A DNA stretch of 64,000 nt from Pseudomonadota bacterium (GTDB lineage Bacteria > Desulfobacterota > Desulfobulbia > Desulfobulbales > Desulfocapsaceae), in assembly GCA_018820855.1 (NCBI GenBank), contig JAHJNL010000074.1:1-64000 (forward strand), given 5' to 3'. Position 1 is the stretch's first letter. Each line of letters starts with the position of its first letter. The translations under genes were made by a program, and so were the position numbers. Positions 49,408-64,000 of the stretch are shown piece by piece. The notes under the pieces were generated by a model. The model was not told where the DNA came from. It saw only the letters and a list, made by a program, of their open reading frames with translations, and did not search any database.

Positions 49408-49800
49408 ATGAAGAAAAAAACCAAAACCGGATTGGGCTGTCTGTTTGTCATACTTTTTTTTGTCCTCCTGATTGTGCTCATGTCTCTTTTTCGAGAAGAA
49501 TATGATCGTTTCATGGGGGAAACAAAGACACAGGAGATTGCCTGGGCTCCGGCAATGAAAATATGTAAGGACAGATACAAGTCCCTTGACTCACCCGGCA
49601 GAATCAACGTACCGAATTGTAAAAAACGAAGCGAAAATGATTTGCAGCATGTCTTTTACTGGAGCAAACCGATGGCGATTTTTATCAAAAAGGACCCCGA
49701 CGTCCTGACCATCAACTCAGGTACCTGTGTAGTATCCAAAGACAGTGGCGAGATAATCTACATGACCCTGAACGACAGAGTAATTGTGGGGGGAAAATGA
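49408..49800 (+). CDS. Small single-pass membrane protein coupled to grdE, unrecognised
   Basis: The 130-aa protein has a basic N-terminus (MKKKTKTG), one strong hydrophobic segment (about 9-26, LGCLFVILFFVLLIVLMSLF), and an exported domain of about 100 residues with three cysteines. No family is recognised; it is not GrdX-like. Its stop overlaps the ATG of the GrdE-like gene (ATGA 49797-49800), so it is translated together with the reductase subunits. A membrane-tethering or accessory role for the reductase is possible but unsupported beyond location. Confidence 0.7.
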   Translation: MKKKTKTGLGCLFVILFFVLLIVLMSLFREEYDRFMGETKTQEIAWAPAMKICKDRYKSLDSPGRINVPNCKKRSENDLQHVFYWSKPMAIFIKKDPDVLTINSGTCVVSKDSGEIIYMTLNDRVIVGGK

Positions 49801-51041
49801 TATTCGAACGAGGAGTTGTTGCTGTAAGCGATGTACAATTCGGGGAGCAGACCGAACTCTGTGACAGAATCTTACTGCTGGACAAGAAAGGGTTAAGCGA
49901 TTTTTTGCTGTCCCTGGATGATACCATGGAGTCCTGCACAGTCTCCATAACCAGACCAGGAGATTCGACCAGGATACTCTGTGTCAAGGATGTGGTGCAA
50001 CCGGGCTGCAAGGTTCGGGGTGATCGTCCCGGTAGGGGCAAACGACATGTCCTGGAAAACGTCACTGTAGTAACCTGCGGCAAGATTGTCGGCTACCAGG
50101 AAGGCATCATTGACATGAGCGGGGCAGGTGCACTCTACTCGCCCTTTTCCCGCACCTTCAATGTCGTGCTGGATATCGCAGTTATCCCCGGTCTGACACC
50201 CCATGAGCATGAAGAGACAGTCAGGAAGGCCGGGCTTGCTGCTGCCGCTTTCCTTGGCGAGACCTCTCGATCGGTGACTCCCGAGACAATGCAATCCTTC
50301 ACCGCCTTGGAAGAGCTGCCCACTTTTCCGGATCTGCCACGCATAGTCTATCTATACATGCTGCTCAGCCAGGGCCTCCTCCATGACACCTATGTCCTTG
50401 GCCGCAATGCCAGCGAAGGACTACCGCGAATCATTGATCCCCTCATCCTGTTGGACAATGCAATCACCTCGGGCAACTGCGTTTCCGCCTGCGACAAGAA
50501 TACCACCTGGCACCACCAGAACAACCCTGTGCTCCGGGAATTGTGGCAGCGCCATGGCCGCGACCTTAATTTTTCCGGCGTTGTTCTCACCACAGAACCT
50601 ATCAGACTGGCTGCCAAGGAAGCCGGAGCGCAAAAGTCCATCGCCCTTATCCAGGAACTGAAGGCCGATGGTGTCATTCTCTCCAAAGAAGGTTTCGGTA
50701 ACCCGGATGCCGACCAGATGCTCTTGACCCGCGGCCTGGAGCAGCAAGGGATCAAAGTGGTGGCCATCACCGATGAATTTGCCGGTGCGGACGGATTTTC
50801 CCAGTCTCTGGCCGATTCAGCCGTGGAGGCAGACGCTGTTGTCTCAGTTGGCAATGCCAATGAGCGGGTCATGCTGCCTCCCATGCAGCGACTGCTGGGT
50901 CCTGTCAGTGACTTGAGCAAGCTTGCAGGCGCCTGGCCGCACAGCCTGCAAGAAGACGGAAGCCTGGAGGTGGAACTGCAGGCAATTATCGGGGCAACCA
51001 ACGAACTCGGTATGCAGACTCTCAGCTGCAGGGAGATCTGA
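49797..51041 (+). CDS. grdE: Glycine/sarcosine/betaine reductase component B, pyruvoyl proprotein subunit (GrdE-like)
   Basis: GrdE is the proprotein that self-cleaves to give the alpha and beta subunits of substrate-binding protein B; the new N-terminal Cys becomes a pyruvoyl group that binds the amine substrate as a Schiff base. The 414-aa sequence carries the cleavage region AITSGNCVSACDKNTTWHHQ, with Asn227-Cys228 as the probable scissile bond, matching the position known in Clostridium enzymes. The N-terminal part fits the beta chain and VGNANERVMLPP the C-terminal chain. Glycine (GrdE), sarcosine (GrdG) and betaine (GrdH) homologues cannot be told apart here. It is followed 2 nt later by the selenoprotein subunit. 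Confidence 0.92.
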   Translation: MIFERGVVAVSDVQFGEQTELCDRILLLDKKGLSDFLLSLDDTMESCTVSITRPGDSTRILCVKDVVQPGCKVRGDRPGRGKRHVLENVTVVTCGKIVGYQEGIIDMSGAGALYSPFSRTFNVVLDIAVIPGLTPHEHEETVRKAGLAAAAFLGETSRSVTPETMQSFTALEELPTFPDLPRIVYLYMLLSQGLLHDTYVLGRNASEGLPRIIDPLILLDNAITSGNCVSACDKNTTWHHQNNPVLRELWQRHGRDLNFSGVVLTTEPIRLAAKEAGAQKSIALIQELKADGVILSKEGFGNPDADQMLLTRGLEQQGIKVVAITDEFAGADGFSQSLADSAVEADAVVSVGNANERVMLPPMQRLLGPVSDLSKLAGAWPHSLQEDGSLEVELQAIIGATNELGMQTLSCREI

Positions 51042-51043
51042 TC

Positions 51044-52402
51044 ATGGCCCATAAATATAGAGTTCTCTACTGTCTGAACCAGTTTTTTGGCGGCCTTGGC
51101 GGCGAAGACAAGGCCTACCAGCCGCCGCAACTCCATAATGGCGCACGGGGACCCGGCATGTTGCTTGAAAAGCTGTTCCCGGAGATAGAAATCGCTGCCA
51201 CCCTTGTAGTTGGCGACAATTACCTTAGCGAAAAGACAGAGGAAGCTCTGCGGGAAATCCTTGCCCTGCTCACCCCCTGCTTTGCGGCTGCAGGTGAAGA
51301 GAAAATCCATCTCCTGCTGGCCGGGCCGGCCTTTAATGCCGGGCGTTACGGCCTGGCCTGCGGTGCCATATGCCAGGCGGTACAGGAAGGGTTTGCAATT
51401 CCTGCTGTAACCGCCATGTATCCACAAAATCCAGCAGTTGCAGAATACAGAAAAGCTGTCCTCATTGCCAAAGCTGGAAAAGATGTCATGGGTATGGAAG
51501 AGGCACTGCGAACCATGGCAGCTCTTGCGCTCAAGCAACTGAACGGGGAGGAATTGCTTCCGGACCAGGATAACTACATCTCCCATGGGCAGCGAAAGAA
51601 TTATTTTACTAAAAAACCTGGAGCCCACCGAGCTCTTGATATGCTGTTACAGAAATTGGCAGGCAAGGAGTTTCATACCGAATACATCATGCCTGTCTTT
51701 GACCGGGTACAGCCCGCACCCCCGGTCCGGGATATAGCCAGCGCCAGACTGGCTCTGGTGACTTCGGGCGGCATTGTCCCTCGCGGCAATCCGGACAGGA
51801 TCGAAGCAGCCAGCGCCAGCCGTTTTGGCATCTATCCCCTGAAAGGCCTGTCAGCATTCAGCAGTGCAACGCACCAGACAGCCCATGGCGGCTATGACCC
51901 GACCTTTGCCAATGACGATCCGAACCGGGTACTGCCCCTGGATGCGGTGCGCGAACTGCAGTCGGAGGGGGCATTCGGCAGCCTGCACGAATTCTATTAT
52001 GCCACGGTGGGCAACGGGACATCGGTTGCCAATGCAAAGAAATATGGGGACGAAATTGCCAAACTCCTGCTGGCCGACGGTGTCCAGGCGGTCATCCTCA
52101 CCTCCACCTGAGGAACCTGTACTCGTTGCGGCGCAACGATGAGCAAGCAGATTGAACGGGCAGGGATACCGGTTGTCCACGCCTGTTCAATTGTCCCCAT
52201 CTCCAAAACAGTGGGGGCAAACCGTATTCTTCCCACCATCGCCATCCCCCACCCCTTCGGCGCCCCGAACAAGAGCCCGGAGGAGGAAAAAAAGATGAGA
52301 AAAGAGCTGGTCAAAAAGGCACTCAAGGCCCTGGCAACGCCAATTGATGAGCAGAGAGTCTTTTCATCCGAACAGAAAAAGAGAAACCTGGATTGCCTAT
52401 GA
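51044..52402 (+). CDS. grdB: Selenoprotein GrdB-like subunit of component B, UGA-encoded selenocysteine
   Basis: GrdB is the large subunit of protein B and carries the selenocysteine that attacks the bound substrate to release ammonia or an amine and pass a carboxymethyl group to GrdA. The reading frame stops at TGA 52109-52111 and continues in the same frame to 52402. Decoding UGA as Sec gives TSTUGTCTRCGATMSKQIE, the conserved GrdB active site, at residue 356 of 452. The part beyond it (RAGIPVVHACSIVPI, SVGANRI-like) is typical GrdB C-terminus, so this is not a pseudogene. A SECIS-like hairpin follows. GGGAG lies 8 nt before ATG 51044. It overlaps the next gene by ATGA. It could equally be GrdF or GrdI. 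Confidence 0.94.
52122..52141 (+). promoter_or_regulatory. bSECIS-like hairpin of grdB
   Basis: Starting 10 nt after the UGA, an 8-bp stem (52122-52129 with 52133-52139 and 52141) closes a GGC loop and has one bulged U (52140). The GG apical loop is about 19 nt after the UGA, where a bacterial SECIS binds SelB. Confidence 0.75.
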
Positions 52403-52950
52403 CAAAAAACCCTGTCAAATACGTCCCCAATGCCTTGTCAACCGGCCGCATACTCCTGGCCTGTGCATTCCCTTTCTCCCCGGAATGGTTATGGCTCTGG
52501 ATTGTTCTCATCAGCGGCATAAGCGATATCCTTGACGGCTGGGTGGCAAGACGATGGCAGGTGCAAAGCTGGGAGGGCGGCCTGCTGGACGGGGTTGCCG
52601 ACAAACTCTTTATTCTCTGTGCTCTCACCACCTTTATTGCTGCAGGCAAATTCTCAGCCTGGTGGCTTCCCGCCCTCCTTGCCCGTGACCTGTTCGTGGC
52701 CTTTACAGCCATTTATGCCATGACCATAAGGTCCTGGGAATCATTTAAAAAGATGGACGTCAGATGGTCCGGCAAAGTGGCAACACTGGGTCAGTTCACC
52801 CTCTTCCTCGTCGTCCTCCTTTTTCCCGACAAAATCCAGCCCGCCCTTTTCATCGCCGCCCTGCTCAGTGTCGGCGCTGCCTGTGATTATGGCTGGCTGT
52901 TTCTCCTGGAGCTGCGCCTTCGCGCAGAGAAAAGGGAGTCTGTCTCATAG
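52399..52950 (+). CDS. CDP-alcohol phosphatidyltransferase
   Basis: The 183-aa multispanning membrane enzyme has the CDP-alcohol motif DGX2ARX8GX3DX3D visible as DILDGWVARRWQVQSWEGGLLDGVADK. It transfers a phosphatidyl group from CDP-diacylglycerol to an alcohol such as glycerol phosphate, serine or choline; which one is unclear. ATG 52399 overlaps the grdB stop (ATGA), so translation is coupled to selenocysteine read-through of grdB, which is unusual for a phospholipid enzyme. PgsA is the default guess, but the genetic link to an amine reductase raises the chance of an amine-containing head group. Confidence 0.82.
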   Translation: MTKNPVKYVPNALSTGRILLACAFPFSPEWLWLWIVLISGISDILDGWVARRWQVQSWEGGLLDGVADKLFILCALTTFIAAGKFSAWWLPALLARDLFVAFTAIYAMTIRSWESFKKMDVRWSGKVATLGQFTLFLVVLLFPDKIQPALFIAALLSVGAACDYGWLFLLELRLRAEKRESVS

Positions 52951-53335
52951 AAGCGAAAGAAGGAACAGACTTATTTTTTGATTTGCCTTATGGCAGAGGT
53001 TAATGGTCCTCCCCCAGTTTAACGGACAGTTTTAATCAGAGAAAAACACCTTTCAACGGAAGGTCCCAATGGTAATCCCATAAGGATGAAGCACTTCTTG
53101 TTGGCTACTCACAAGTAGCATATGCAAATAATAGAAATATGCCGCGAGCTCTGTTTGTTATTTTCAGAGCCACTTCTCCAACTCTCATTATTGCCTTATC
53201 AAGGCAATAAATAATGCAACAATAGAAGCTAACTTCTACCTTTATTTGCAAAAATGAATTATCATTCATTTTTGTTTTTCCGGCAATACGCAGCTCACCA
53301 TATTAAGAGAAATCAAAAAAAAAGGAGGATGAACC
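52951..53335. other. Intergenic region with two inverted repeats upstream of the DsrE-like gene
   Basis: No gene. A 10-bp palindrome with 3-nt centre lies at 53188-53210 (TATTGCCTT/AAGGCAATA core). A perfect 11-bp inverted repeat at 53249-53274 (CAAAAATGAAT/ATTCATTTTTG) is followed by a T-rich stretch. The second looks like an AT-rich operator of Fur type or a weak terminator. AGGAGG lies 7 nt before ATG 53336. Confidence 0.5.
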
Positions 53336-53695
53336 ATGAGTGACAACGTTGTTATTATCTGTTCTTGCGGCACAGATAATCCGAACAGGTCAAGCCGAGC
53401 AATCCATCTTGCAACAATTGCCCACAAGGAGGGAAAAAACGTTTCCCTCTTCTTACTTGATGAAGCAGTTTATCTCGTCAAAAAGGGAATGATCAATCAT
53501 CTTCAGGCTGCGACCGGAGATGTCGCCGATGATCTGATGACGTACCTCCAGGCCCATGATGTCCCCATCCTTGCCTGTACGCCATGTGCCAAAAGCCGGC
53601 AGATATTTGAAGATGACCTGATCGATGGAGCAAGAATGGGCACCGCCGTGGAACTCATTCATCTCTGTTCCGATGCTGCTGTTATCAGTTTATAA
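53336..53695 (+). CDS. DsrE family sulfur-relay-like protein
   Basis: The 119-aa protein has the DsrE/TusD-like fold signature: an N-terminal VVIICSCGTDNPNRSSRAIHLA, a central region LDEAVYLVKKG, and Cys residues in LACTPCAKSRQ, where a persulfide-carrying Cys would sit. DsrE-like proteins move sulfur atoms as persulfides in sulfur metabolism or tRNA thiolation. It is a single gene with a strong SD (GGAGG), framed by inverted repeats on both sides. Its partner is unknown. Confidence 0.82.
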   Translation: MSDNVVIICSCGTDNPNRSSRAIHLATIAHKEGKNVSLFLLDEAVYLVKKGMINHLQAATGDVADDLMTYLQAHDVPILACTPCAKSRQIFEDDLIDGARMGTAVELIHLCSDAAVISL

Positions 53696-53724
53696 CAAAC
53701 AAGCAACGGATTAAGACTACAATG

Positions 53725-53765
53725 ATCTTATGCATTCCCATGCTCCACGCGAGAATGCATAAGAT
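53725..53765 (+). terminator. Hairpin downstream of the DsrE-like gene
   Basis: A perfect 13-bp inverted repeat (53725-53737 and 53753-53765) lies 30 nt after the stop codon. There is no T-run, so termination would be weak, but the stem is strong. Confidence 0.55.
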
Positions 53766-53777
53766 AGAATATAACTA

Positions 53778-53850
53778 ACCAAAACAGAACAGAACAATTA
53801 ATCCCATTTCAAAGACAGATGCAGCGCTGATTGTTCCGTTCTGATTTGGT
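53778..53850. repeat. Long imperfect inverted repeat, 21-bp arms
   Basis: ACCAAAACAGAACAGAACAAT at 53778-53798 pairs with 53830-53850 at 19 of 21 positions across a 31-nt spacer. The similarity seems to extend a few bases outward with a small gap. It could be a tiny non-autonomous mobile element, a large transcript hairpin or an operator. The rest of 53696-54035 is non-coding. Confidence 0.55.
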
Positions 53851-54035
53851 TTCGATTAGTATCTTGTCAAGAAACTGGAATAATTTATATTTTTTTTGAC
53901 TTGTCCGATTTAGCCGATTATCATTAATGACTTAATGAGATAATTGCATGGAAAACCGGGCTAACGAATCAAATTGTATGAACAAGAAAGACCCAAAAAA
54001 GCGAATACCATTACCCAGAGGAGTATAAAACACGG

Positions 54036-56087
54036 ATGAGTTCTGACTTCATCGCCAAAGAAATTTCCTGGCTCAGTTTTAACGGCCGTCTGTTGCAGGA
54101 GGCCATGGACCCGACGGTCCCCCTGATCGAACGACTGAAATTTCTGGGCATCTACTCCTCTAATATGGATGAGTTCTTCGAGGTTCGCGTGGCCACTCTC
54201 AGCCGCCTGTCCCAATTGGGAAAAAAGAGCCTGAGCCTGATCCCAGTGGATCCGCGAAAAACCTTGAAAGAGGTTCACCAGCTGGTCCTGTCACAACAGA
54301 CGCAGTTTAAGGAGATATACAGCCACCTCGTGGAAGAGTTGAGAAAGCAGCAGGTCTTTTTTCTCAACGAGAAGACTATCACTCCCAAACAGAAGGAGAA
54401 TCTCACCCACTACTTCCATACCCGCGTTCGCCCCCATATCTTTCCCCTCATGGTGAACAGCCGGACGGTAATTCCCGAACTGGTCCACCGCGCCATCTAT
54501 CTGGCTGTGATAATGAGGAAAAAACCATCTTCCGTTTCGAAAGAATACTGTATCATCCGTATCCCCTCTCACATTGTGCAACGCTTCGTGCCTTTGCCGC
54601 GTGAAGGGAAAAAGCAGTACCTTATCATGCTCGACGACGTGATCCGCCTTGGACTGGAAGAGATTTTCCGTCCCTTTCAGTACACCTCTTTCGAGGCCTA
54701 TTGCTTCAAAATAAGCCGTGATGCCGAGTTGGACATCAAAGACGACATTTCCGCCAGCTACCTGGAACAGATCCAGGAAAGCCTTCACCAGCGAAAACTG
54801 GGAGACCTGGTCCGCATGGTTTACGACCGCACCATGCCCGATTTCCTACTCACTCTCCTGGTGAGAAAACTGAAACTTACATCAGATACACTGATCGAGA
54901 CCAATCGACGCTACCATAACTCCAAGGACTACATCACCTTCCCTTCTCTTCTGCCCACCCGGACTATTCTCTATCCCGAGCCCGTCGTTCCCCGAAGACT
55001 GATTCCGGGGAAGAGCTTTTTCGATATCCTCGATGAAGGCGATGTCTTGCTCAACTTTCCTTACCAGTCTTTTGATCATGTTATCGATTTTCTGCGCGAA
55101 GCAGCCATCGATCCGAAAGTAACAGAGATCAAAATCAACCTTTATCGCCTGGGGAAACATTCGAGTGTAATCAACGCCCTGATCAATGCAGGAAAAAACC
55201 GGAAAAATGTTATGATCCTGCTGGAACTCCAAGCCCGCTTTGATGAAAAGGCCAACATCCACTGGGCCAACGTGCTCAAGGATGAAGGGATCAAGGTGAT
55301 CTTCGGTGTACCGGGACTCAAAGTGCACTCCAAGGTGTGCATGATCACCCGAGTGAAAAAGGGAGTTGCGAAGACCTACTGTCTCATCGGCAGTGGCAAC
55401 TTCAACGAAGACACAGCCAGATATTACACAGATGCCTTTCTCCTCACGGCCAACAAAAAGATCGCCAAGGATGTGCGCAACCTCTTTGGCTTTTTCGGGA
55501 AGAACTACAAACTTGACCCCTTTGAGCAGCTGCTCGTCTCGCCTTTCATCTTCAGAAAAAAAATCATAAAACTGATTCGCAATGAAATCCATTGCATGCA
55601 GAAGGGAAAACCCGCCTATATTGACCTGAAGCTGAACAACCTGGCCGACCGGGAGATCATCGAACTCCTTTACGAAGCCAGCCAGGCAGGGGTCAAAATT
55701 CGTCTCGCCGTACGGGGTATGTTCTCACTGGTAACAGGGGTGAAGGGAAAGAGTGAGAGGATCGAAGGGAGAGGGCTTGTGGACAAGTACCTGGAACACA
55801 GCCGGATCTTCTTTTTCGGCAACGGAGGAGAAGAGCTCTGCTTTATCTCTTCGGCCGACCTGCTGCCTCGGAACCTCGATTCCCGCGTGGAAGTGACCTG
55901 TCCCATCCTCGATGCCGAGGTTCATCAGGAGTTGCGCGATATTTTCGAGCACGTCTGGGCCGATAACGTGAAGTCACGCATTCTCAACGCCAAGCTCGAC
56001 AACACCTACTTCCGTGAGGGTAAGACAAAAGTCCGCTCCCAGGAAGCCATCTACAACTACCTGAAGATGAAACATCAGGGAAACTAG
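54036..56087 (+). CDS. ppk1: Polyphosphate kinase 1
   Basis: PPK1 reversibly makes inorganic polyphosphate from ATP. The 683-aa protein has the N-terminal FLGIYSSNMDEFFEVRV, the nucleotide-binding region, the autophosphorylated His in LKVHSKVCMI, and GSGNFNEDTARYYTDAFLLT, followed by the C-terminal C2 domain (SSADLLPRNLDSRVEV). Length and motifs are typical. It may be co-regulated with phosphate or stress; no Pho box was recognised. It converges with the SulP transporter gene. Confidence 0.97.
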   Translation: MSSDFIAKEISWLSFNGRLLQEAMDPTVPLIERLKFLGIYSSNMDEFFEVRVATLSRLSQLGKKSLSLIPVDPRKTLKEVHQLVLSQQTQFKEIYSHLVEELRKQQVFFLNEKTITPKQKENLTHYFHTRVRPHIFPLMVNSRTVIPELVHRAIYLAVIMRKKPSSVSKEYCIIRIPSHIVQRFVPLPREGKKQYLIMLDDVIRLGLEEIFRPFQYTSFEAYCFKISRDAELDIKDDISASYLEQIQESLHQRKLGDLVRMVYDRTMPDFLLTLLVRKLKLTSDTLIETNRRYHNSKDYITFPSLLPTRTILYPEPVVPRRLIPGKSFFDILDEGDVLLNFPYQSFDHVIDFLREAAIDPKVTEIKINLYRLGKHSSVINALINAGKNRKNVMILLELQARFDEKANIHWANVLKDEGIKVIFGVPGLKVHSKVCMITRVKKGVAKTYCLIGSGNFNEDTARYYTDAFLLTANKKIAKDVRNLFGFFGKNYKLDPFEQLLVSPFIFRKKIIKLIRNEIHCMQKGKPAYIDLKLNNLADREIIELLYEASQAGVKIRLAVRGMFSLVTGVKGKSERIEGRGLVDKYLEHSRIFFFGNGGEELCFISSADLLPRNLDSRVEVTCPILDAEVHQELRDIFEHVWADNVKSRILNAKLDNTYFREGKTKVRSQEAIYNYLKMKHQGN

Positions 56088-56251
56088 CCCCTTCTGTCAG
56101 GAAACCCCCGCGTTCTGACAGAAGAACGGCAGGGGCAGATCTGCACAATTACCACAATAACCAACGGTGAATGGAGCACCATGACTCGTGGTGCCTCCGG
56201 AACCTGAATTCACCTGTTTCTTTGAATGACAACATTCGTATCATCCTATTC

Positions 56252-57781
56252 TCAAGCCAACTGGTCGCTGGCCACCCAGTAACGTGGGTCCTCGATAACG
56301 TTAACCTCGATCATGCTGCCGGCATTATGCAGCAGGGTGCGGCACTCTGGACTGAGGCGTTTGAGACGCAGTTTTTTCCCCCGGCTCAAGTAACGTTCGG
56401 TGAGACTGTTGATGGACTCAATACCTGAATGATCGCAGACCCTGGCCAGGCCGAAATCGATAATCACCTCGTCCGGATCTTCCTGGGGAGTGAACTGTTC
56501 CTGAAAGCTGTGTATGGAGCCGAAAAAGAGGGAACCGCTCAGCCTGTATACCTTAGCGCCGGATTCGTCGATACTGCTGCTCGAGGTAATACGCTTGGCG
56601 CTTTCCCAGGCAAAAACCAGAGCCGAGACGATGACTCCAACCCCGACGGCGATGGCCAGGTCAGTGGCGACGGTGACAGCGGAGACGAGCACCAGCACCA
56701 AGGCATCGGTAAACGGAATCTTGTGCAGAATGCGAAAGCTCGACCAGGCGAAGGTACCGATGACGACCATGAACATGACGCCAACCAGGGCAGCCAGCGG
56801 AATCATCTCAATTAGGCCCGAGGCAAACACAATGAAGACCAACAGAAAAAGCGCCGCCGCGATGCCGGAAAGCCTGCCACGCCCCCCGGAATTGACATTA
56901 ATCATGCTCTGGCCGATCATAGCGCACCCTCCCATACCGCCAAAGAAACCGGTCACCACATTGGCAGCCCCCTGGCCGATACACTCTTTGTTACCACGTC
57001 CGCGGGTTTCGGTTATTTCATCGATCAGGCTCATGGTCATAAGCGACTCGATCAGGCCGATGGCAGCAAGGATGCCTGCATAGGGAAGGATAATCAGGAT
57101 ATTGTCAAGGGTGAGCGGTACCAGGGGAATGTGAAACTGGGGCAGACCGCCGGCAACCGAGGCCAGATCACCGACCATGCGGGTATCGAGATCAAGGCCG
57201 TGGGCCAGGGCAGTAACTGCAAGAATAGCAACCAGCGAAGCGGGAATGGCTCGGGTAAGCTTGGGAAGAAAATAGATGATTGCCATGGTCAGCGTCACCA
57301 GGCCAAGCATCATCCACAGAAGAGGGCCACTCATCCACTGCATCAGTCCTTCAGCGTTTTCAACCTTGAACTGACTGAGCTGGGCCAGGAAAATGACGAT
57401 GGCCAGACCATTAACAAAACCAAGCATGACCGGATGAGGAATCAGGCGTACGAACTTCCCCAGCCGCAGCAGGCCGGCACTGATCTGGATGAGGCCCATC
57501 AGGACCACGGTTGCAAAGAGGTACTCGACTCCATGCTGAGCCACCAAGGTGACCATGACAACTGCCAGAGCTCCGGTGGCACCGGAGATCATCCCCGGAC
57601 GTCCGCCAATGACAGAAGTGATCAAACCGACCATAAAAGCGGCATAAAGACCGACCAGGGGAGCAACCCCTGCTACGAAAGAAAAGGCCACCGCTTCGGG
57701 CACCAGGGCCAGGGCCACGGTCAGACCCGATAATATATCATCTTTGAAACTTGCAGTTCTTCTGACAAAAAGCTCAAACAT
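56252..57781 (-). CDS. SulP family anion transporter with STAS domain
   Basis: The 509-aa protein has about 10-12 transmembrane helices in the SulP fold: an N-terminal [67 protein letters not shown], and the block [32 protein letters not shown]. It ends with a cytoplasmic STAS domain (about 400-505, [18 protein letters not shown]). SulP proteins carry sulfate, bicarbonate or carboxylates; substrate is uncertain. It is a single gene on the minus strand. Confidence 0.92.
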
Positions 57782-57948
57782 CGTTATCCTTATAGGTATG
57801 GATTCAAGAAAAAAACGACGAACCTAAACAGGATGGCCTGGAATAGCAAGTAATTAAAAGAGAACCCTCTAACAACACCTAACGCACTTTAGGACTAGAC
57901 GCAGATTGAGATAGCCAACAGATAGAGGCAATAGACAGACTGTCAGGT

Positions 57949-58005
57949 CAGGTCTGAGCTCATAGGGCTTAACAGTCCGAGAGACCGAACAGCCCTCCAG
58001 ACCTG
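57949..58005. ncRNA. Possible structured element, nested hairpin
   Basis: CAGGTCTG (57949-57956) pairs with CAGACCTG (57998-58005), and inside it AGGGCT (57964-57969) pairs with AGCCCT (57991-57996), with an asymmetric internal loop. It is 170 nt upstream of the SulP start on one side and 90 nt before a likely promoter on the other. No T-run follows on either strand, so it is not a typical terminator. No known RNA family was recognised. Confidence 0.3.
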
Positions 58006-58096
58006 TTGACATTATGGTATTACCGAAACGACACAAATGGATAATTCAATAGGTCAGGCACACATTTTGTAACTATTATTGGTTTCCCACGTTCTA

Positions 58097-58105
58097 TGTT
58101 ATAAT
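58097..58105 (+). promoter_or_regulatory. Extended -10 promoter for the LapG-like genes
   Basis: TGT followed by TATAAT (58100-58105) is a perfect extended -10 box, about 200 nt upstream of ATG 58308. The -35 region (TTGG-like) is poor. The rest of the 57782-58307 gap holds no recognisable gene or riboswitch. Confidence 0.5.
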
Positions 58106-58307
58106 AGCCGTTAATTCCTGCTTTACTCTTTGATAATCGGAAGTATTCGCAGTAGAATGAGTATTGTGCTTTTTTGAGCCCGCCAGGATAGGGACCAAAA
58201 ACAACGGTGGATACAGCGTACTGGAGTCAACTCGTCGTTTCCCGTTCCCGGGTTGCTTGGTTCAATAAACGCCTATTCACCACCAAGTATGATGGAAAAC
58301 CGATCAG

Positions 58308-58994
58308 ATGAACAGCTTGCACTTCTTTTTTGCTAATTTATACAAACCTGCCCGCCTCTCTCTCTGGACAATGGCGCTGCTACTGGCAGTGCTGGTCAAC
58401 GGCTGCAGCAAAAAACCTCTGCCCCCCCCCGAGCCACCTGTCATTGAAAGATATGACGAAGCGACAAGAAAGAGAATCGCTCAGTGGAAAGCCCTTATTA
58501 AAGAGACAAAAAAGGCCCCTATCAGCGAGAAACTGGCTTCGGTGAACAAATTTTTTAATCACCTTCACTTTGTTACCGATCGTAATCACTGGGGACAGGA
58601 GGACTACTGGGCAACACCGTTGGAGACACTGGTCAGCAACGGAGGTGACTGCGAGGATTTCACCATTGCCAAATATTTCACCCTGAAAAGCCTGGAAGTA
58701 CCGGACAAAAAAATGCGGCTGACCTACGTCAAATCACTGACCCGCAATCAGGCGCACATGGTCCTCAACTATTACCACCACCCCTCTTCCGACCCCCTGG
58801 TACTTGACAATCTGAACAAGCGCATAGTGCCTGCCTCCCAACGTAAAGACCTGGTACCGGTCTACAGTTTTAACGGCACAGGGCTCTGGTTGGCAAAGAA
58901 CCGTGGTTACAGTACCCCGGTGGGTGGAGCCAGCCGACTCAAACTCTGGCAGGAGGTTCTGCAACGTGCAGAAGATGAACCGTTACTACCCTGA
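58308..58994 (+). CDS. LapG-like (BTLCP) periplasmic cysteine protease lipoprotein, first copy
   Basis: The 228-aa protein has a signal peptide with lipobox LVNGC (Cys near residue 33) followed by a Pro-rich linker. A transglutaminase-like cysteine protease core has Cys in SNGGDCEDFTIAKYFTL, His in QAHMVLNYY and Asp in PLVLDNLN, typical of bacterial transglutaminase-like cysteine proteases such as LapG. LapG cleaves giant surface adhesins when cyclic di-GMP is low. No LapD or adhesin gene is nearby. A near copy follows at 59046-59780. Confidence 0.83.
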   Translation: MNSLHFFFANLYKPARLSLWTMALLLAVLVNGCSKKPLPPPEPPVIERYDEATRKRIAQWKALIKETKKAPISEKLASVNKFFNHLHFVTDRNHWGQEDYWATPLETLVSNGGDCEDFTIAKYFTLKSLEVPDKKMRLTYVKSLTRNQAHMVLNYYHHPSSDPLVLDNLNKRIVPASQRKDLVPVYSFNGTGLWLAKNRGYSTPVGGASRLKLWQEVLQRAEDEPLLP

Positions 58995-59045
58995 AACGCA
59001 CCAATTACGTACGTGTCCTTTAAAGTACTTTGATGTCAATTTGTA

Positions 59046-59780
59046 TTGGCCAAGAGATTCTGCGTCTTTTTATTCTACCCTGAATCGGTAACTATCATAA
59101 GCTGCCTCAAACAATTCTTTTCTCCTGACCTATGCAAACCTGCCCGCCTGTCTCTCTGGACAATGGTACTGCTGCTGGCGCTGATATCCGGTTGCGGGAA
59201 GAAACCTCCTCCCCTTGAGCAACCTTATTTTGAAAAATATGATGAAGCGGCAAGACAGAGAATCGCCCAGTGGAAGACTCTTATTAATGATAAAAGAAAG
59301 GCCCCTATCAGCGAAAAACTGGTTTCAGTGAACAGCTTTTTCAACCGGCTTCACTTTGTTTCCGATCTTAACCATTGGGGACAGGAGGACTATTGGGCAA
59401 CACCGCTGGAGACACTAGGCAGCAACGGAGGTGACTGCGAGGATTTCACCATTGCCAAATATTTCACCCTGAGAAGCCTGAAAGTACCGGATGAGAAGAT
59501 GCGACTGACCTACGTCAAATCACTTACCCTGAATCAGCCCCACATGGTCCTCAACTATTACCACCACCCCTCTTCCGACCCTCTGGTACTCGACAATTTG
59601 AACAAGCGGATTCTCCCCGCCTCCCAGCGTAAGGATCTGGTACCGATATACAGTTTTAACGGTACAGGACTCTGGTTGGCAAAAAACCGTGGCGACAGCC
59701 CCCCGGCTGGTGAATCCAGCCGACTCAAACTCTGGCAGGAGGTCCAGCAACGCGTGAAAGAGGAATCTTTACTTCCCTGA
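59046..59780 (+). CDS. LapG-like (BTLCP) cysteine protease lipoprotein, second copy with unclear start
   Basis: A tandem duplicate of 58308-58994, similar over nearly the whole length, with lipobox LISGC and the same Cys, His and Asp motifs. The ATG that starts the first copy corresponds to ATA here, and no in-frame ATG lies between the TTG at 59046 and the Met inside the signal peptide. Either the TTG start (no SD) is used, giving 244 aa, or the gene has lost its normal start and is weakly expressed. The catalytic part shows no decay, so translation by some route is likely. It converges 4 nt from the next gene. Confidence 0.72.
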   Translation: MAKRFCVFLFYPESVTIISCLKQFFSPDLCKPARLSLWTMVLLLALISGCGKKPPPLEQPYFEKYDEAARQRIAQWKTLINDKRKAPISEKLVSVNSFFNRLHFVSDLNHWGQEDYWATPLETLGSNGGDCEDFTIAKYFTLRSLKVPDEKMRLTYVKSLTLNQPHMVLNYYHHPSSDPLVLDNLNKRILPASQRKDLVPIYSFNGTGLWLAKNRGDSPPAGESSRLKLWQEVQQRVKEESLLP

Positions 59781-59784
59781 ACAG

Positions 59785-60414
59785 TTACAGTTGAGTGTTC
59801 TTTGAGACAAGGGGATCAGGGACCTTGCTATCAAGGTCACCAAAGTCGCTGCGAATTTCACTGTTGTTTTCCCGGAACCCCTCCCCATCGCCATAATCCA
59901 GGAAAAATCTATAGCGACTGTGCCTTGTCTTGGTTCGCTGGGCATGTTTTATGGGACACCAATACTGCTCCGTCCGGCCTGCTATTTCCTGAACATAGCC
60001 GATCAGACCTGTGAAATATTCACAGTAACAGCAGTTTATTTTTTCAATCAGATTCAGGTAACTCAGGTATTGCCGATCAAACAGGATATAGTCACTCCGT
60101 TTGACCTTTGGGATGCAATAAACAGGAAAACAGATCATCTGAAAAATGGAAACAACAAGGTCCAGGAACAGGGCAGGCAACAGGCAGGACCAGATCACCG
60201 GCCCAGAAAGTATATTCAGCAGGGTCGCATCATTGATATAGCGACGAATAGTTTTGAGCAGAAGCCTGTTTTTCTCTTTAACGTCCTTCTGAAAGCGGAC
60301 CTTTTTATCTCGAACCTCGTAAAAATACTCTTTTTCTTTTTTCTGTAATTCACTGAACAGTTCCTGTTCAAGCAGTTTTATCCTGCTCAGCAGTTCCTCT
60401 AATCTATTATTCAT
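59785..60414 (-). CDS. Conserved-looking membrane protein with Cys motifs, function unknown
   Basis: The 209-aa protein begins with a charged coiled coil (about 1-55, EELLSRIKLLEQELFSEL), then a long hydrophobic region (about 68-105) and a Cys-rich part EKINCCYCEYFTGLIGYVQ and TEQYWCPIKHAQRTKTRHSRYRFFLDYGD. The NCCYCEYF and WCPIKHA blocks look conserved and recall a family of uncharacterised bacterial membrane proteins, but I cannot name it. A metal or Fe-S site is possible. Confidence 0.62.
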   Translation of the reverse strand: MNNRLEELLSRIKLLEQELFSELQKKEKEYFYEVRDKKVRFQKDVKEKNRLLLKTIRRYINDATLLNILSGPVIWSCLLPALFLDLVVSIFQMICFPVYCIPKVKRSDYILFDRQYLSYLNLIEKINCCYCEYFTGLIGYVQEIAGRTEQYWCPIKHAQRTKTRHSRYRFFLDYGDGEGFRENNSEIRSDFGDLDSKVPDPLVSKNTQL

Positions 60415-60551
60415 TCAACGTCCTGTGGCACTGTCAGAAGTGACCCCGAGTTTCACATCTTCATAAGATCACATGAAAAAGCGACACCAAAGACTACTTA
60501 CAATGATTGAGCATCTGATAGAGAATCGTTATGATCTCTGCAATGATCTGC

Positions 60552-61016
60552 TTACACCTTATAACTGATACGCGCATCTTTCATAATATTACAGATCGTT
60601 TCCCGTGCCTCCTCCTCGATTTCAAGTTCATACATGGCCATTTCCTTTTCCCACACCTCTGCCGGAATATCACCTTGAAGTTCAAGGATATGATAGCTTT
60701 CTATGTTCAAAGCAACACCGGCCAGGGGTCCTGCAAAGCTGGGATCACCATTTTTGAAGGTCTGGGCCATGATCCGTATGGTGGACGGCTGGTTGATGCC
60801 GAAAACAATGATCAGGTTCTCGGCCCCATGCTGCGCAGCAAGTTTCCTGATCTCTTCCTGTACCGTAAGACCTACGGCGCCTGCCGCAGTTCAGACAAAA
60901 CAGGCGGTGGCCTCATAAACGATTTCGGCGCCGGCAGCTTTGAGACATGTGCTGACCGTTGTCCCGGAAATATCATCCCTCTCTCCAAAAACGATGACTT
61001 TTTTCCCTGTTAACAT
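60552..61016 (-). CDS. grdA: Selenoprotein GrdA (glycine reductase component A), UGA-encoded selenocysteine
   Basis: GrdA is the small shared selenoprotein that takes the carboxymethyl group from protein B and delivers acetyl (as a thioester) to protein C. Read on the minus strand from ATG 61016, the frame is [14 protein letters not shown] ... [18 protein letters not shown], where U is the in-frame TGA at 60893-60891. It continues as FGINQPS and [21 protein letters not shown] to the stop at 60552. It has 154 residues with Sec at position 42 in a CxxU motif, matching the family (about 155 aa, Sec44). GAGGAG lies 9 nt upstream. It is 36 nt after grdC, so one operon. A naive reading finds only a 72-aa C-terminal fragment. 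Confidence 0.95.
60862..60878 (-). promoter_or_regulatory. bSECIS-like hairpin of grdA
   Basis: On the minus strand, 12 nt after the UGA, GCCGTA pairs with TACGGT around a GGTCT loop. The loop (GGUC at +19 to +22) closely matches the E. coli fdhF SECIS apical loop. Loop sequence and spacing both fit SelB recognition. Confidence 0.8.
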
Positions 61017-61052
61017 GTGCGTTCTCTCCTCATTTTGGTTTTCAGTCCACTC

Positions 61053-62519
61053 TCAAAGCCTGGGATTACGCTCCAGGACAAATGAAACACCGTCCAGCAG
61101 ATTCGTGCAGCGATTAAGAAAAAGACTTGCCCGGGCGAGGAACATGACCCGTTTGATCTCCCCCCTGTTCATGGCCTCCATGGCATGGCCGATATAGGGG
61201 ACCGCTGATGGGATATGTCCCTGAGTCGGAGCAAAACCGGGCATGCCGACCCTTTCGATCCATGCGTTCATCCCGGATTTTTCCAGCTGTTTTGCAAGCA
61301 CCGCCATTGCCGCAATTTTCCGATAATTTTTTGACGCTACATCGCCGGAACCCGCAAATTCCATGATTTCCGGATTATGCAGTTCAGCGGCATAACGATC
61401 GATGTCCGTGCACTTCAAGCCAAGGCTCTCGAGAGGCGCCAGCAGATAATGACGGAACACAGCCTCATCAGAAAAGCCTGCTCCCGCAGGAACCGTGCCC
61501 ACGGCTCCGGGTTCAAGACGGATAATGGGGCTTGCCCCATCATCTTCGCTTATCAGCAAAGCAGTAGAGGCAAGACAATCATCAAGAATAGGGATACCGT
61601 GCTCCAGGAAAGACTGGAATTTCATCCCGAGTTTGGCAAGTGAGCCACCGCCTATCACCGCGACACGCTTATACAGGCCTGCCTTCACCATGGCCGCTGC
61701 CGTAATGATGGCTGAAGCCGGTGCTGCACAGAAGTTCTTGATATCCATGCCCGAGGCATTGGTGCAGCCGCACATCTCGCCAATGGCCTTGGCCATACCG
61801 CCGCCGCCACGCTGATACCGGTCACCACAGGCCTCTTCACCGCAACTGATAAGAAAATCAATTTTCTCAGGATTTATTTTCTCACGGTGCAGGAGCCAGG
61901 TGAGTGCCAGGGCCCCGGAGGCCTTGGTGCATAGATTTTCAAGAAGAGTGTATGGTCCGAGATTGTCATCCCCCTTTCCTTCCGCCCGCTCATCGCCATA
62001 AAACCAGCCGCAGCTTTTTCCCTCTGAGCGCATGGCCAGGGCAGAAGATCGGCTTGGATCCTGTCGGCTATGGTCATGCACATCTTGAGGAATAGCTGCC
62101 AGCCTGGAGGCAAAACCAGCGAGCAGGGGATGCGCCGCAAGACCTTCCCGCAATCTTGCCAGCACAGTGTCATCCACGGCAAAAAGTGGAGGATTCAGGA
62201 CATCTGCCAGCTTGAGCAGACCGTAAAAGCTTTTCTGATCAAGGATCTCCCCGAATTTACCCTTAGCGCTGCATAATGCTTCATTTTCAAACCAGGGCCT
62301 TGGAATATTTCCCAGCTCATCAGGAGACAGGTTACCGACAAAGGTCTGGTTCGGAGGGTAGCAACAGGCCTTGTTATAGGAACGAAGAGAGTGGGCAATG
62401 GACTCTTTACTGCTTGGATTTTCTATTATTTCCCGTCGTGGTTTTGAGCCATACTGCACAAGATCAGGAACATGGACCAAACAGTACGAACAGTTTTTTA
62501 TGACAGGAGTTGTGACCAT
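61053..62519 (-). CDS. grdC: Glycine/sarcosine/betaine reductase component C, GrdC subunit
   Basis: GrdC is a thiolase/FabH-like acyl-transfer protein that, with GrdD, converts the acetyl group received from GrdA into acetyl phosphate. The 488-aa protein has the family N-terminus (SYCLVHVPDLVQYGSKP), GGGGMAKAIGEMCGCTNASGMDIKNFCAAPASA in the catalytic region, AVIGGGSLAKLGMKFQSF, and the C-terminal FLNRCTNLLDGVSFVLE. GrdD, normally the next gene, is not present downstream; grdA is. It begins 42 nt after the acyl-CoA ligase on the same strand. Confidence 0.93.
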   Translation of the reverse strand: MVTTPVIKNCSYCLVHVPDLVQYGSKPRREIIENPSSKESIAHSLRSYNKACCYPPNQTFVGNLSPDELGNIPRPWFENEALCSAKGKFGEILDQKSFYGLLKLADVLNPPLFAVDDTVLARLREGLAAHPLLAGFASRLAAIPQDVHDHSRQDPSRSSALAMRSEGKSCGWFYGDERAEGKGDDNLGPYTLLENLCTKASGALALTWLLHREKINPEKIDFLISCGEEACGDRYQRGGGGMAKAIGEMCGCTNASGMDIKNFCAAPASAIITAAAMVKAGLYKRVAVIGGGSLAKLGMKFQSFLEHGIPILDDCLASTALLISEDDGASPIIRLEPGAVGTVPAGAGFSDEAVFRHYLLAPLESLGLKCTDIDRYAAELHNPEIMEFAGSGDVASKNYRKIAAMAVLAKQLEKSGMNAWIERVGMPGFAPTQGHIPSAVPYIGHAMEAMNRGEIKRVMFLARASLFLNRCTNLLDGVSFVLERNPRL

Positions 62520-62561: not shown

Positions 62562-64000
62562 TTACGCGAGCACATCATGCCCCTTATACAGTTCCCTGAT
62601 GATTTCCGTATAACGTCTTTCTATTTCCCCTCGTTTCAACTTCAAGGTCGGGGTCAACAGACCGTTTTCAATGCTCCACTCATCCAGGAGCAGGCCGACC
62701 TGACGAATCCGGGCATTACCGGGAAATCCGTGGAGCAGGACCTGAATTTTCTCGACAACAGCCGCCTTGACGGCTGGTGCCTGCAGTGACGAGACATCAG
62801 CCGGATCCAGCCCATATTTCCCTGCCAGTTCTTCCCATGGGGAACGGTGCAAGACCAGCAATGCGCCAAGATACGGCATGCCCTCGCCAACCACCATCGC
62901 ATGATCAAATAGAGGATCAGCGACAAGGGTCATCTCCAGGTCAGCAGGAGGCACCTTTTCACCGGTTGAGGTAACGATGATCTCTTTGAGCCGTCCGCGG
63001 ATAGAGATGTTGCTGTTCGTTATTTCCACCACGTCACCGGTATGGAGCCAGCCATCACTGTCAATTACTTCATTGAATTTATCCGGCAGGTTCCAGTAGC
63101 CTGACATGAGACCGGGGCTTTTCACCAGCAGTTCATTCTCCTGACCGATACGACACTGAACATCCGGAAGAGGAGGCCCCACCGAGGTCGGAATATTGTG
63201 GCCTGGAGTATTGGCGCTGACCACAGGTGCCGCTTCTGTCAGTCCATAGCCCTGGATCAAAGGGAGTCCGAGACTGAGGAAAAATCTGGAGACAGCCTCC
63301 TGCAGAGGGGCGCCGCCACTTACAGCAAAACGGATTCGGCCGCCAAGCCGGTCAAGGATCTTAGCGGCAACAACACGTTGCAACAAAGGCCAGAGCAGAT
63401 ATTCCCGGAAGGTCGAGGCCGGAGCTCGTCCCTGTGCAGTTTCAAAATGACGCCAGCCGGTGTCGAGCGTGAGCTGAAAGAGCCAATGGGCTACGATGTT
63501 CCTGTGCTGCAGCTGTTTCCGGACCTTGGCGTATATCTTTTCAAAGATACGCGGCACTGAAATAATGATCGTGGGGTGTATGGTCTGCAGATCTTCCGCC
63601 AATTTCTCCATGGAACGGGCATAGGCGACCGAACATCCTGCCATCATCGGCGTATAATACCCTACCGTGCGTTCAAAGGTATGGGAGAGCGGGAGAAAGG
63701 AGAGGAGGATGTCGGAGGGATAACAGGGGATCACCTTCAGAATAGCCTCCGCATTCCAGAGTATGTTTTTATGCGAGAGCATCACGCCTTTGGGTGGTCC
63801 GGTGGTTCCCGAGGTGTAGACGATGGTGGCCAGGCTGTCGGGATCATCAACATTGATGCATATCTCGCCGCCATAATCAGGCAGCCACGCAGTTATTGAA
63901 ACGCTTGCAGGACCAGGAGACGGGGCCGGAAGGCTGTCCTCCAGGCAAACAACCTTATTGAGTTGCGGAAAAGAGGCAGCATGAGGGACAAGTTTCCGCC
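62562..64000 (-). CDS. AMP-forming acyl-CoA synthetase (partial, 5' end outside window)
   Basis: The frame is open through the right edge of the window, so the true start lies beyond 64000. The AMP-binding signature YTSGTTGPPKGVMLSHKN is near 63780-63840. It is followed by the adenylate core SFLPLSHTFERTVGYY, GGAPLQEAVSRFFLSLGLPLIQGYGLTE, DGWLHTGDVVEI and GRLKEIIVTSTGEKVPP, typical of long-chain fatty-acid-CoA ligases (FadD15/FAA-like). It activates a carboxylate as an acyl-AMP then an acyl-CoA. It is directly upstream of grdC-grdA, 42 nt away, so it may be co-transcribed with the reductase genes. Confidence 0.9.
   Translation of the reverse strand, partial: RKLVPHAASFPQLNKVVCLEDSLPAPSPGPASVSITAWLPDYGGEICINVDDPDSLATIVYTSGTTGPPKGVMLSHKNILWNAEAILKVIPCYPSDILLSFLPLSHTFERTVGYYTPMMAGCSVAYARSMEKLAEDLQTIHPTIIISVPRIFEKIYAKVRKQLQHRNIVAHWLFQLTLDTGWRHFETAQGRAPASTFREYLLWPLLQRVVAAKILDRLGGRIRFAVSGGAPLQEAVSRFFLSLGLPLIQGYGLTEAAPVVSANTPGHNIPTSVGPPLPDVQCRIGQENELLVKSPGLMSGYWNLPDKFNEVIDSDGWLHTGDVVEITNSNISIRGRLKEIIVTSTGEKVPPADLEMTLVADPLFDHAMVVGEGMPYLGALLVLHRSPWEELAGKYGLDPADVSSLQAPAVKAAVVEKIQVLLHGFPGNARIRQVGLLLDEWSIENGLLTPTLKLKRGEIERRYTEIIRELYKGHDVLA

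Follow-up and report, generated by a model that had tools for sequence, protein, structure and literature searches.

A putative selenocysteine-dependent glycine reductase without GrdD in a Desulfocapsa-like bacterium

The grd genes and their host

We analyzed a stretch of 64,000 nucleotides (contig JAHJNL010000074.1 of assembly GCA_018820855.1, positions 1 to 64,000; hereafter the window), which carries four genes of the glycine/sarcosine/betaine reductase (Grd) system, grdE and grdB on the plus strand and grdC and grdA on the minus strand. An original prediction from this DNA had proposed these genes with intact active sites and two in-frame UGA codons for selenocysteine (Sec); all four are real, and their signatures and UGA codons are intact. 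The window thus holds a real glycine-type reductase in a phylum, Desulfobacterota, for which Grd as such is already known. The point of interest, overlooked in the original prediction, is the missing subunit GrdD together with a matching difference in GrdC.

The grdE gene (49797..51041, +) encodes the 414-aa protein B alpha proprotein (PF09338, 484 bits) with the pyruvoyl-type motif SGNCVSACDK. The grdB gene (51044..52402, +) encodes selenoprotein B, which reaches 452 aa through readthrough of a UGA at 52109-52111 (residue 356, context STUGTCTRCG) and scores 457 bits with PF07355 and 560 bits with the general model TIGR01918 (cut-off 65). Directly after this UGA starts a 38-base match to a selenocysteine insertion sequence (SECIS) element (52112..52149, +; Rfam SECIS_4, 39.2 bits, gathering score 38). 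On the opposite strand, grdC (61053..62519, −) encodes the FabH-like protein C subunit (488 aa; NF040746, 544 bits, cut-off 450), in which Cys264 is the probable acyl-carrying residue and which lacks the C-terminal tail of GrdC proteins partnered by GrdD. Selenoprotein A is encoded by grdA (60552..61016, −; 154 aa via UGA readthrough; NF040748, 150 bits, cut-off 130), whose UGA lies at 60893-60891 in the context CFVUTAAGA, with CFVU conforming to the CxxU pattern of this protein. A SECIS-like hairpin 3' of the grdA UGA (60862..60878, −) is also kept in several relatives, one of which (L037) shows a compensatory pair change. In the window stretch alone, the hairpin is not the minimum-energy fold, another fold being lower in energy. 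The GrdA proteins of Desulfobulbales are divergent, scoring 137-154 bits compared with 239-249 bits in five GrdD-bearing genomes. Searches of the PDB with GrdE and GrdB and a scan of viral contigs for GrdC relatives led nowhere, and an AlphaFold model of the window GrdC from a three-sequence input had a mean predicted local distance difference test (pLDDT) value of 34.

The original prediction had made its case depend on a Sec machinery in the genome and on the tree position of protein B, and both checks came out in its favor: SelB (367 bits, cut-off 242) and tRNA-Sec (73 bits, gathering score 47) are present in the same genome, and GrdE and GrdB fall inside the glycine/sarcosine/betaine reductases. 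An Rfam scan of the SelB locus led nowhere. Among named genomes, a one-GrdB contig scan gave six close GrdB relatives, all from metagenome-assembled genomes (MAGs), including Desulfocapsa sp. (82% identity to the window), Desulfobulbaceae bacterium (83%) and Desulfocapsaceae bacterium (65%), the others being less precisely named. We infer that the host is a Desulfocapsa-like member of Desulfobulbales, which agrees with the Gram-negative, possibly sulfate-reducing bacterium proposed earlier and makes it probably sulfur-cycling. The surprise expressed there at a Grd system outside Firmicutes is not new. Judging by the available parts of these papers, a 2006 table of Deltaproteobacteria already listed Grd selenoproteins for Syntrophus and Desulfuromonas (PMC1794560), and in Desulfovibrio desulfuricans CO2 is fixed via glycine reductase, yielding acetyl phosphate (PMC7547702).

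Absence of GrdD and the matching difference in GrdC

GrdE and GrdB with Sec in GrdB, selenoprotein A and GrdC, as expected of the reductase superfamily, are all found in the window, but GrdD, the component for acetyl phosphate formation, was not found: the genome has no match to NF040747 over the cut-off and contains PlsX only. The earlier statement that the system looks functional passes over this gap. GrdD over the cut-off was found in none of the 193 genomes of the order, including the host's own, and the listed NF040747 matches in the order were partial, scored no higher than 30 bits and for the most part fell in reading frames of some 340 aa, as long as PlsX. The host genome has a single PF02504 protein, which we take to be PlsX because it is flanked by genes that visual inspection identified as L32 and FabH, as is usual for PlsX. 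As a positive control, GrdD was detected at 493-530 bits in 5 of 395 genomes of the phylum (two surveys of 395 genomes, drawn alike, taken as one set), all five of which have GrdE.

Over the order and phylum surveys, GrdE occurs in 30 genomes (14 and 18, two shared), with GrdC in 28 of them and GrdA in the same 28 (27 over the GrdA model cut-off). GrdD is absent from 23 of these 28 Desulfobacterota genomes with GrdE, GrdC and GrdA. G054 (86% complete; its GrdE sits at the edge of a 4.5-kb contig) and G384 were not counted, as both GrdC and GrdA are missing from them, and GrdD over the cut-off is missing as well; G069 and G054 gave no GrdB row, GrdB itself not having been searched genome-wide. 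Each of the four grdC-bearing loci taken as references from the plasmid collection (Acetoanaerobium noterae, Photobacterium sp. DA100, Enterococcus gilvus and E. raffinosus) has grdD immediately behind grdC. Literature searches of open-licence papers, supplements excluded, returned no title or abstract on GrdD-less systems.

The C-terminal tail of GrdC follows the same division, being present in 9/9 proteins with a GrdD partner (five from Desulfobacterota, three from Bacillota and one from a Gammaproteobacterium, thus three phyla) and in 0/23 from GrdD-less genomes. The former extend roughly 30-40 residues past the end of the common core and close in a helix-like repeat of hydrophobic positions, whereas at this position the latter carry 0-16 residues with a different sequence. 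Sites 26 (K versus T or V) and 300 (K versus N) have no residue common to the groups with and without GrdD, while C264 is invariant. In the GrdC tree, one branch (100/99) parts the tailed, GrdD-partnered proteins from the tailless, GrdD-less ones.

Proposed fate of the acetyl group

The GrdC profile matches FabH-type synthases across the catalytic cysteine (best E 2e-5), with the GrdC cysteine aligned to that of FabH, and the reference GrdD matches PlsX (E 7e-5). PlsX converts acyl thioesters to acyl phosphates, and FabH-like enzymes handle acyl-coenzyme A (acyl-CoA). GrdD is plausibly the phosphate-using half of protein C because of its match to PlsX. With GrdC and no GrdD the acetyl group would therefore need another acceptor, for which CoA is the simplest guess because FabH-like enzymes act on acyl-CoA.

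We lean slightly toward the view that the window encodes a Sec-dependent glycine reductase of a GrdD-less lineage, in which the GrdC cysteine would pass the acetyl group to a non-phosphate acceptor. By analogy with the known enzyme, GrdE and GrdB would bind glycine through their pyruvoyl group and Sec and free ammonia, the carboxymethyl group would move to the Sec of GrdA, and GrdC would take over the acetyl group. The final step is suggested here by the missing GrdD: C264 of GrdC would hand the acetyl group on, not to phosphate but to another acceptor, CoA being the simplest candidate. A broader proposal, which we put forward only tentatively, is that two old types of glycine reductase exist, the second being GrdD-free, with GrdC alone producing acetyl-CoA from glycine on its FabH-like cysteine, and that in the first type the tail of GrdC would serve to dock GrdD.

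Several points weigh against transfer to a non-phosphate acceptor. A thiol of GrdD is essential in the clostridial enzyme. The occurrence of acetate kinase in 5/5 GrdD-bearing but 9/23 GrdD-less genomes speaks for such transfer, but the test (Fisher p 0.041) is uncorrected for kinship, and the host genome is among those nine, with two acetate kinase matches, so that acetyl phosphate could be used there; a non-homologous substitute for GrdD may also be encoded elsewhere in it. Finally, the tail/GrdD pattern is one old split and counts as a single event on the tree, and the Fisher value for the tail is therefore not independent support.

The role of GrdD might also be filled in trans by the housekeeping PlsX or by an unrelated phosphate acyltransferase, leaving acetyl phosphate as the product. 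PlsX is present and related to GrdD, and acetate kinase is available in the host, but acetate kinase went unmatched in 14 of the 23 GrdD-less genomes, a scan of 10 proteins neighboring GrdD-less grd genes elsewhere in the phylum revealed no phosphate acyltransferase, and the GrdC in question is without the tail common to all sampled GrdD-partnered GrdC proteins. We consider such complementation unlikely, with perhaps a quarter of the weight on its side. Release of the acetyl group as acetate by hydrolysis, with the system serving as an electron sink or nitrogen source without energy gain, would fit a conserved four-gene module that encodes no dedicated acceptor enzyme; it appears improbable given the invariant probable acyl cysteine of GrdC, as expected for a thioester that is kept and transferred.

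Glycine reductase is regarded as an enzyme that forms acetyl phosphate, and papers on the reductive glycine pathway, in their available parts, assume that product. If transfer to CoA is true, the window would encode a CoA-linked glycine reductase bypassing acetyl phosphate and acetate kinase, suiting carbon assimilation rather than fermentation. If many Desulfobacterota forms are without the acetyl-phosphate subunit (23/28 here), the carbon route and energy yield attributed to these forms should be reconsidered. A natural one-subunit protein C also makes the division of labor between GrdC and GrdD testable.

Substrate preference

The original prediction had named betaine, sarcosine or glycine as possible substrates; the type of reductase holds, and the motifs favor glycine over the other two. 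Motifs separating glycine GrdB from sarcosine GrdF have been published by Nobu and others (PMC9751293, seen in part). The window GrdB has the glycine-type discriminating residues AHGGYDP, RVLPLD and TVGNGTSV (pattern AHGGxD, RV[IL]PxD, TxGNxTxV), and the GrdF motif is absent from it. TxGNxTxV is present in 13/13 Desulfobulbales GrdB rows, where the AHGG element begins with A, V or I. The GrdE motif SGNCVSACDK occurs in 14/14 Desulfobulbales rows, the Acetoanaerobium glycine-type operon, Photobacterium and the five GrdD-bearing genomes, and is absent from two sarcosine and three betaine references.

In both the GrdB tree (39 of 43 rows, with three duplicates and one partial dropped) and the GrdE tree (41 of 44, three duplicates dropped), the window is placed in a Desulfobulbales group (100/100) distinct from the betaine references, which form a 100/100 group of their own. 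The trees rule out the betaine group but leave the choice between glycine and sarcosine undecided, because the references for these two are not cleanly separated in the GrdB tree. Acetoanaerobium was labeled "glycine" and "betaine", and E. raffinosus "betaine", on the basis of gene order and similarity, the records being unannotated there. A second grdE/grdB pair of one GrdD-less genome (G123, locus L032) groups with the betaine references (100/100), a grouping that also concerns L166 of Acetoanaerobium; this genome may reduce betaine too.

A glycine substrate is opposed by the profile scores and by part of the published motif. Among the NCBIfam models for GrdB, the sarcosine model scored best (563 bits, NF040794 cut-off 800), ahead of the general (560), glycine (526, below the TIGR01917 equivalog cut-off of 602) and betaine models (505, below the NF040795 cut-off of 775), and the best GrdE model was also that for sarcosine (412 bits, below its cut-off of 780). 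The window GrdB departs from the full glycine motif at two N-terminal residues, with C in place of the Y of YxN and V in place of the C of CGD, the rest being conserved, and a filter based on the motif of PMC9751293 would exclude the window GrdB. Among Desulfobulbales GrdB rows, the Y of YxN is replaced by C or S in 13/13 and the C of CGD by V, F or S in 12/13, while other Grd protein B rows keep both residues; it is possible that the cysteine of Desulfobulbales GrdB has moved. These scores and substitutions, together with the mixed glycine and sarcosine references, speak for sarcosine, betaine or another amine as the substrate. We nevertheless regard that as improbable in view of the glycine-type motifs of GrdB and GrdE, the separate betaine group and the genes found next to grdC in several relatives.

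In four of these genomes (G123, G159, G065 and G112), a gene pair adjoins grdC. The products of the G065 pair match L-threonine 3-dehydrogenase (Tdh; E 5e-119 to 7ol1) and 2-amino-3-ketobutyrate CoA ligase (Kbl; E 4e-69 to 3tqx), and the other three pairs are homologous to it. Together, Tdh and Kbl convert threonine to glycine and acetyl-CoA. In the host genome, tdh and kbl lie together at C27:4028-6207, and threonine dehydrogenase was found in 10 of 14 GrdE genomes of the order compared with none of the five GrdD-bearing genomes. Glycine may thus be supplied partly from threonine. A role of the four pairs in sphingolipid synthesis, as serine palmitoyltransferase and ceramide reductase, was rejected when comparison with solved structures favored Tdh and Kbl.

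Locus layout and neighboring genes

The two grd pairs were described earlier as divergent and about 8 kb apart. They are in fact convergent, and the interval between them (52403..60551) measures 8.1 kb but is local and secondary: of the 13 genomes of the order that carry GrdE, GrdC and GrdA, eight (G123, G035, G032, G065, G159, G112, G056 and G093) have grdE grdB running tail to tail into grdA grdC, with only 13-89 bases between the matched grdB and grdA ends. Among the others, grdC, grdA and grdE run in one direction at a contig end in G069, the pairs are about 5.5 kb apart in G160, and they lie on separate contigs in G079 and G164. A decaying remnant of a once complete system, as the split pairs and the patchy occurrence of GrdE (3/12 genomes of the own genus, 14/193 of the order) might suggest, is very improbable, given that 13 genomes of the order, from five families, have retained the reading frames, UGA codons and signatures.

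The interval encodes a CDP-alcohol phosphatidyltransferase-like protein, a DsrE-related protein, a polyphosphate kinase, a SulP-like protein, two BTLCP/LapG-like proteins and one hypothetical protein. The genes for the LapG/BTLCP-like cysteine proteases (58308-58994 and 59046-59780) are arranged in tandem and alike to each other, and a 209-aa protein without a Pfam match (59785-60414) adjoins grdA in G160 and G079 too. Immediately upstream of grdC and on its strand lie genes for an AMP-binding acyl ligase (614 aa) and a protein of 960 aa with acyl carrier protein-like, AMP-binding and acyltransferase domains (window 62562-64000 and L031 2565-7285). This pair is also present in G079 and G160, and at least its first gene in G164. 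The AMP-ligase genes next to grdC in these genomes were left out of the model, their adjacency being limited to close relatives of the window proteins. G164 (loci L035 and L131) belongs to another family (f12), yet its GrdB and GrdC are 82-83% identical to those of the window and it has the same AMP ligase neighbor, suggesting either a recent transfer or misbinning.

Comparison with known systems

The clostridial glycine reductase of Acetoanaerobium noterae (L137; names by similarity, the record being unannotated) has the gene order grdX trxB trxA grdE grdA grdB grdC grdD. It shares with the window homologous GrdE, GrdB, GrdA and GrdC, the glycine-type GrdB and GrdE motifs and Sec in GrdA and GrdB. 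In contrast, the window is without GrdD and the GrdC tail, has two convergent pairs, and showed no trxA/trxB or grdX at the module. A gammaproteobacterial grd cluster on the megaplasmid of Photobacterium sp. DA100 (L138) includes trxB, trxA, two grdA, grdC, grdD, grdE and grdB.

Within the same phylum, the Desulfovibrio-type system (D. desulfuricans G11, PMC7547702; similar loci L128 and L130) likewise has glycine-type GrdB and GrdE, GrdA and GrdC. It differs in having GrdD, a tailed GrdC and clustered trx genes, and its product is reported in the available part of that paper to be acetyl phosphate. The GrdEBCA clusters of Lost City MAGs, on which the available text (PMC9469722) makes no comment regarding GrdD, are named without it, as in the window, and are said to cluster with selA, selB and trxA. 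According to the accessible part of a 2026 study of five glycine reductase subunits across Desulfobacterota, the presence of the complex in the common ancestor is unsupported (PMC12827605).

The protein B components of other reductases are also homologous to that of the window. The sarcosine reductase GrdFG of Peptoclostridium acidaminophilum (L140 and L167) shows 50% GrdB identity to the window, but has the GrdF motif and a GrdG without SGNCVSACDK. The betaine reductase GrdHI of Enterococcus gilvus (L139) lies in the separate 100/100 group of both trees, is without both glycine motifs and has GrdD. For the fluoroacetate reductase FarEB (PMC10838667), the window GrdE scored 125 bits with the FarE model (cut-off 675), and the two processing cysteines that FarE is said to lack in the available part of that report are both kept in the window GrdE.

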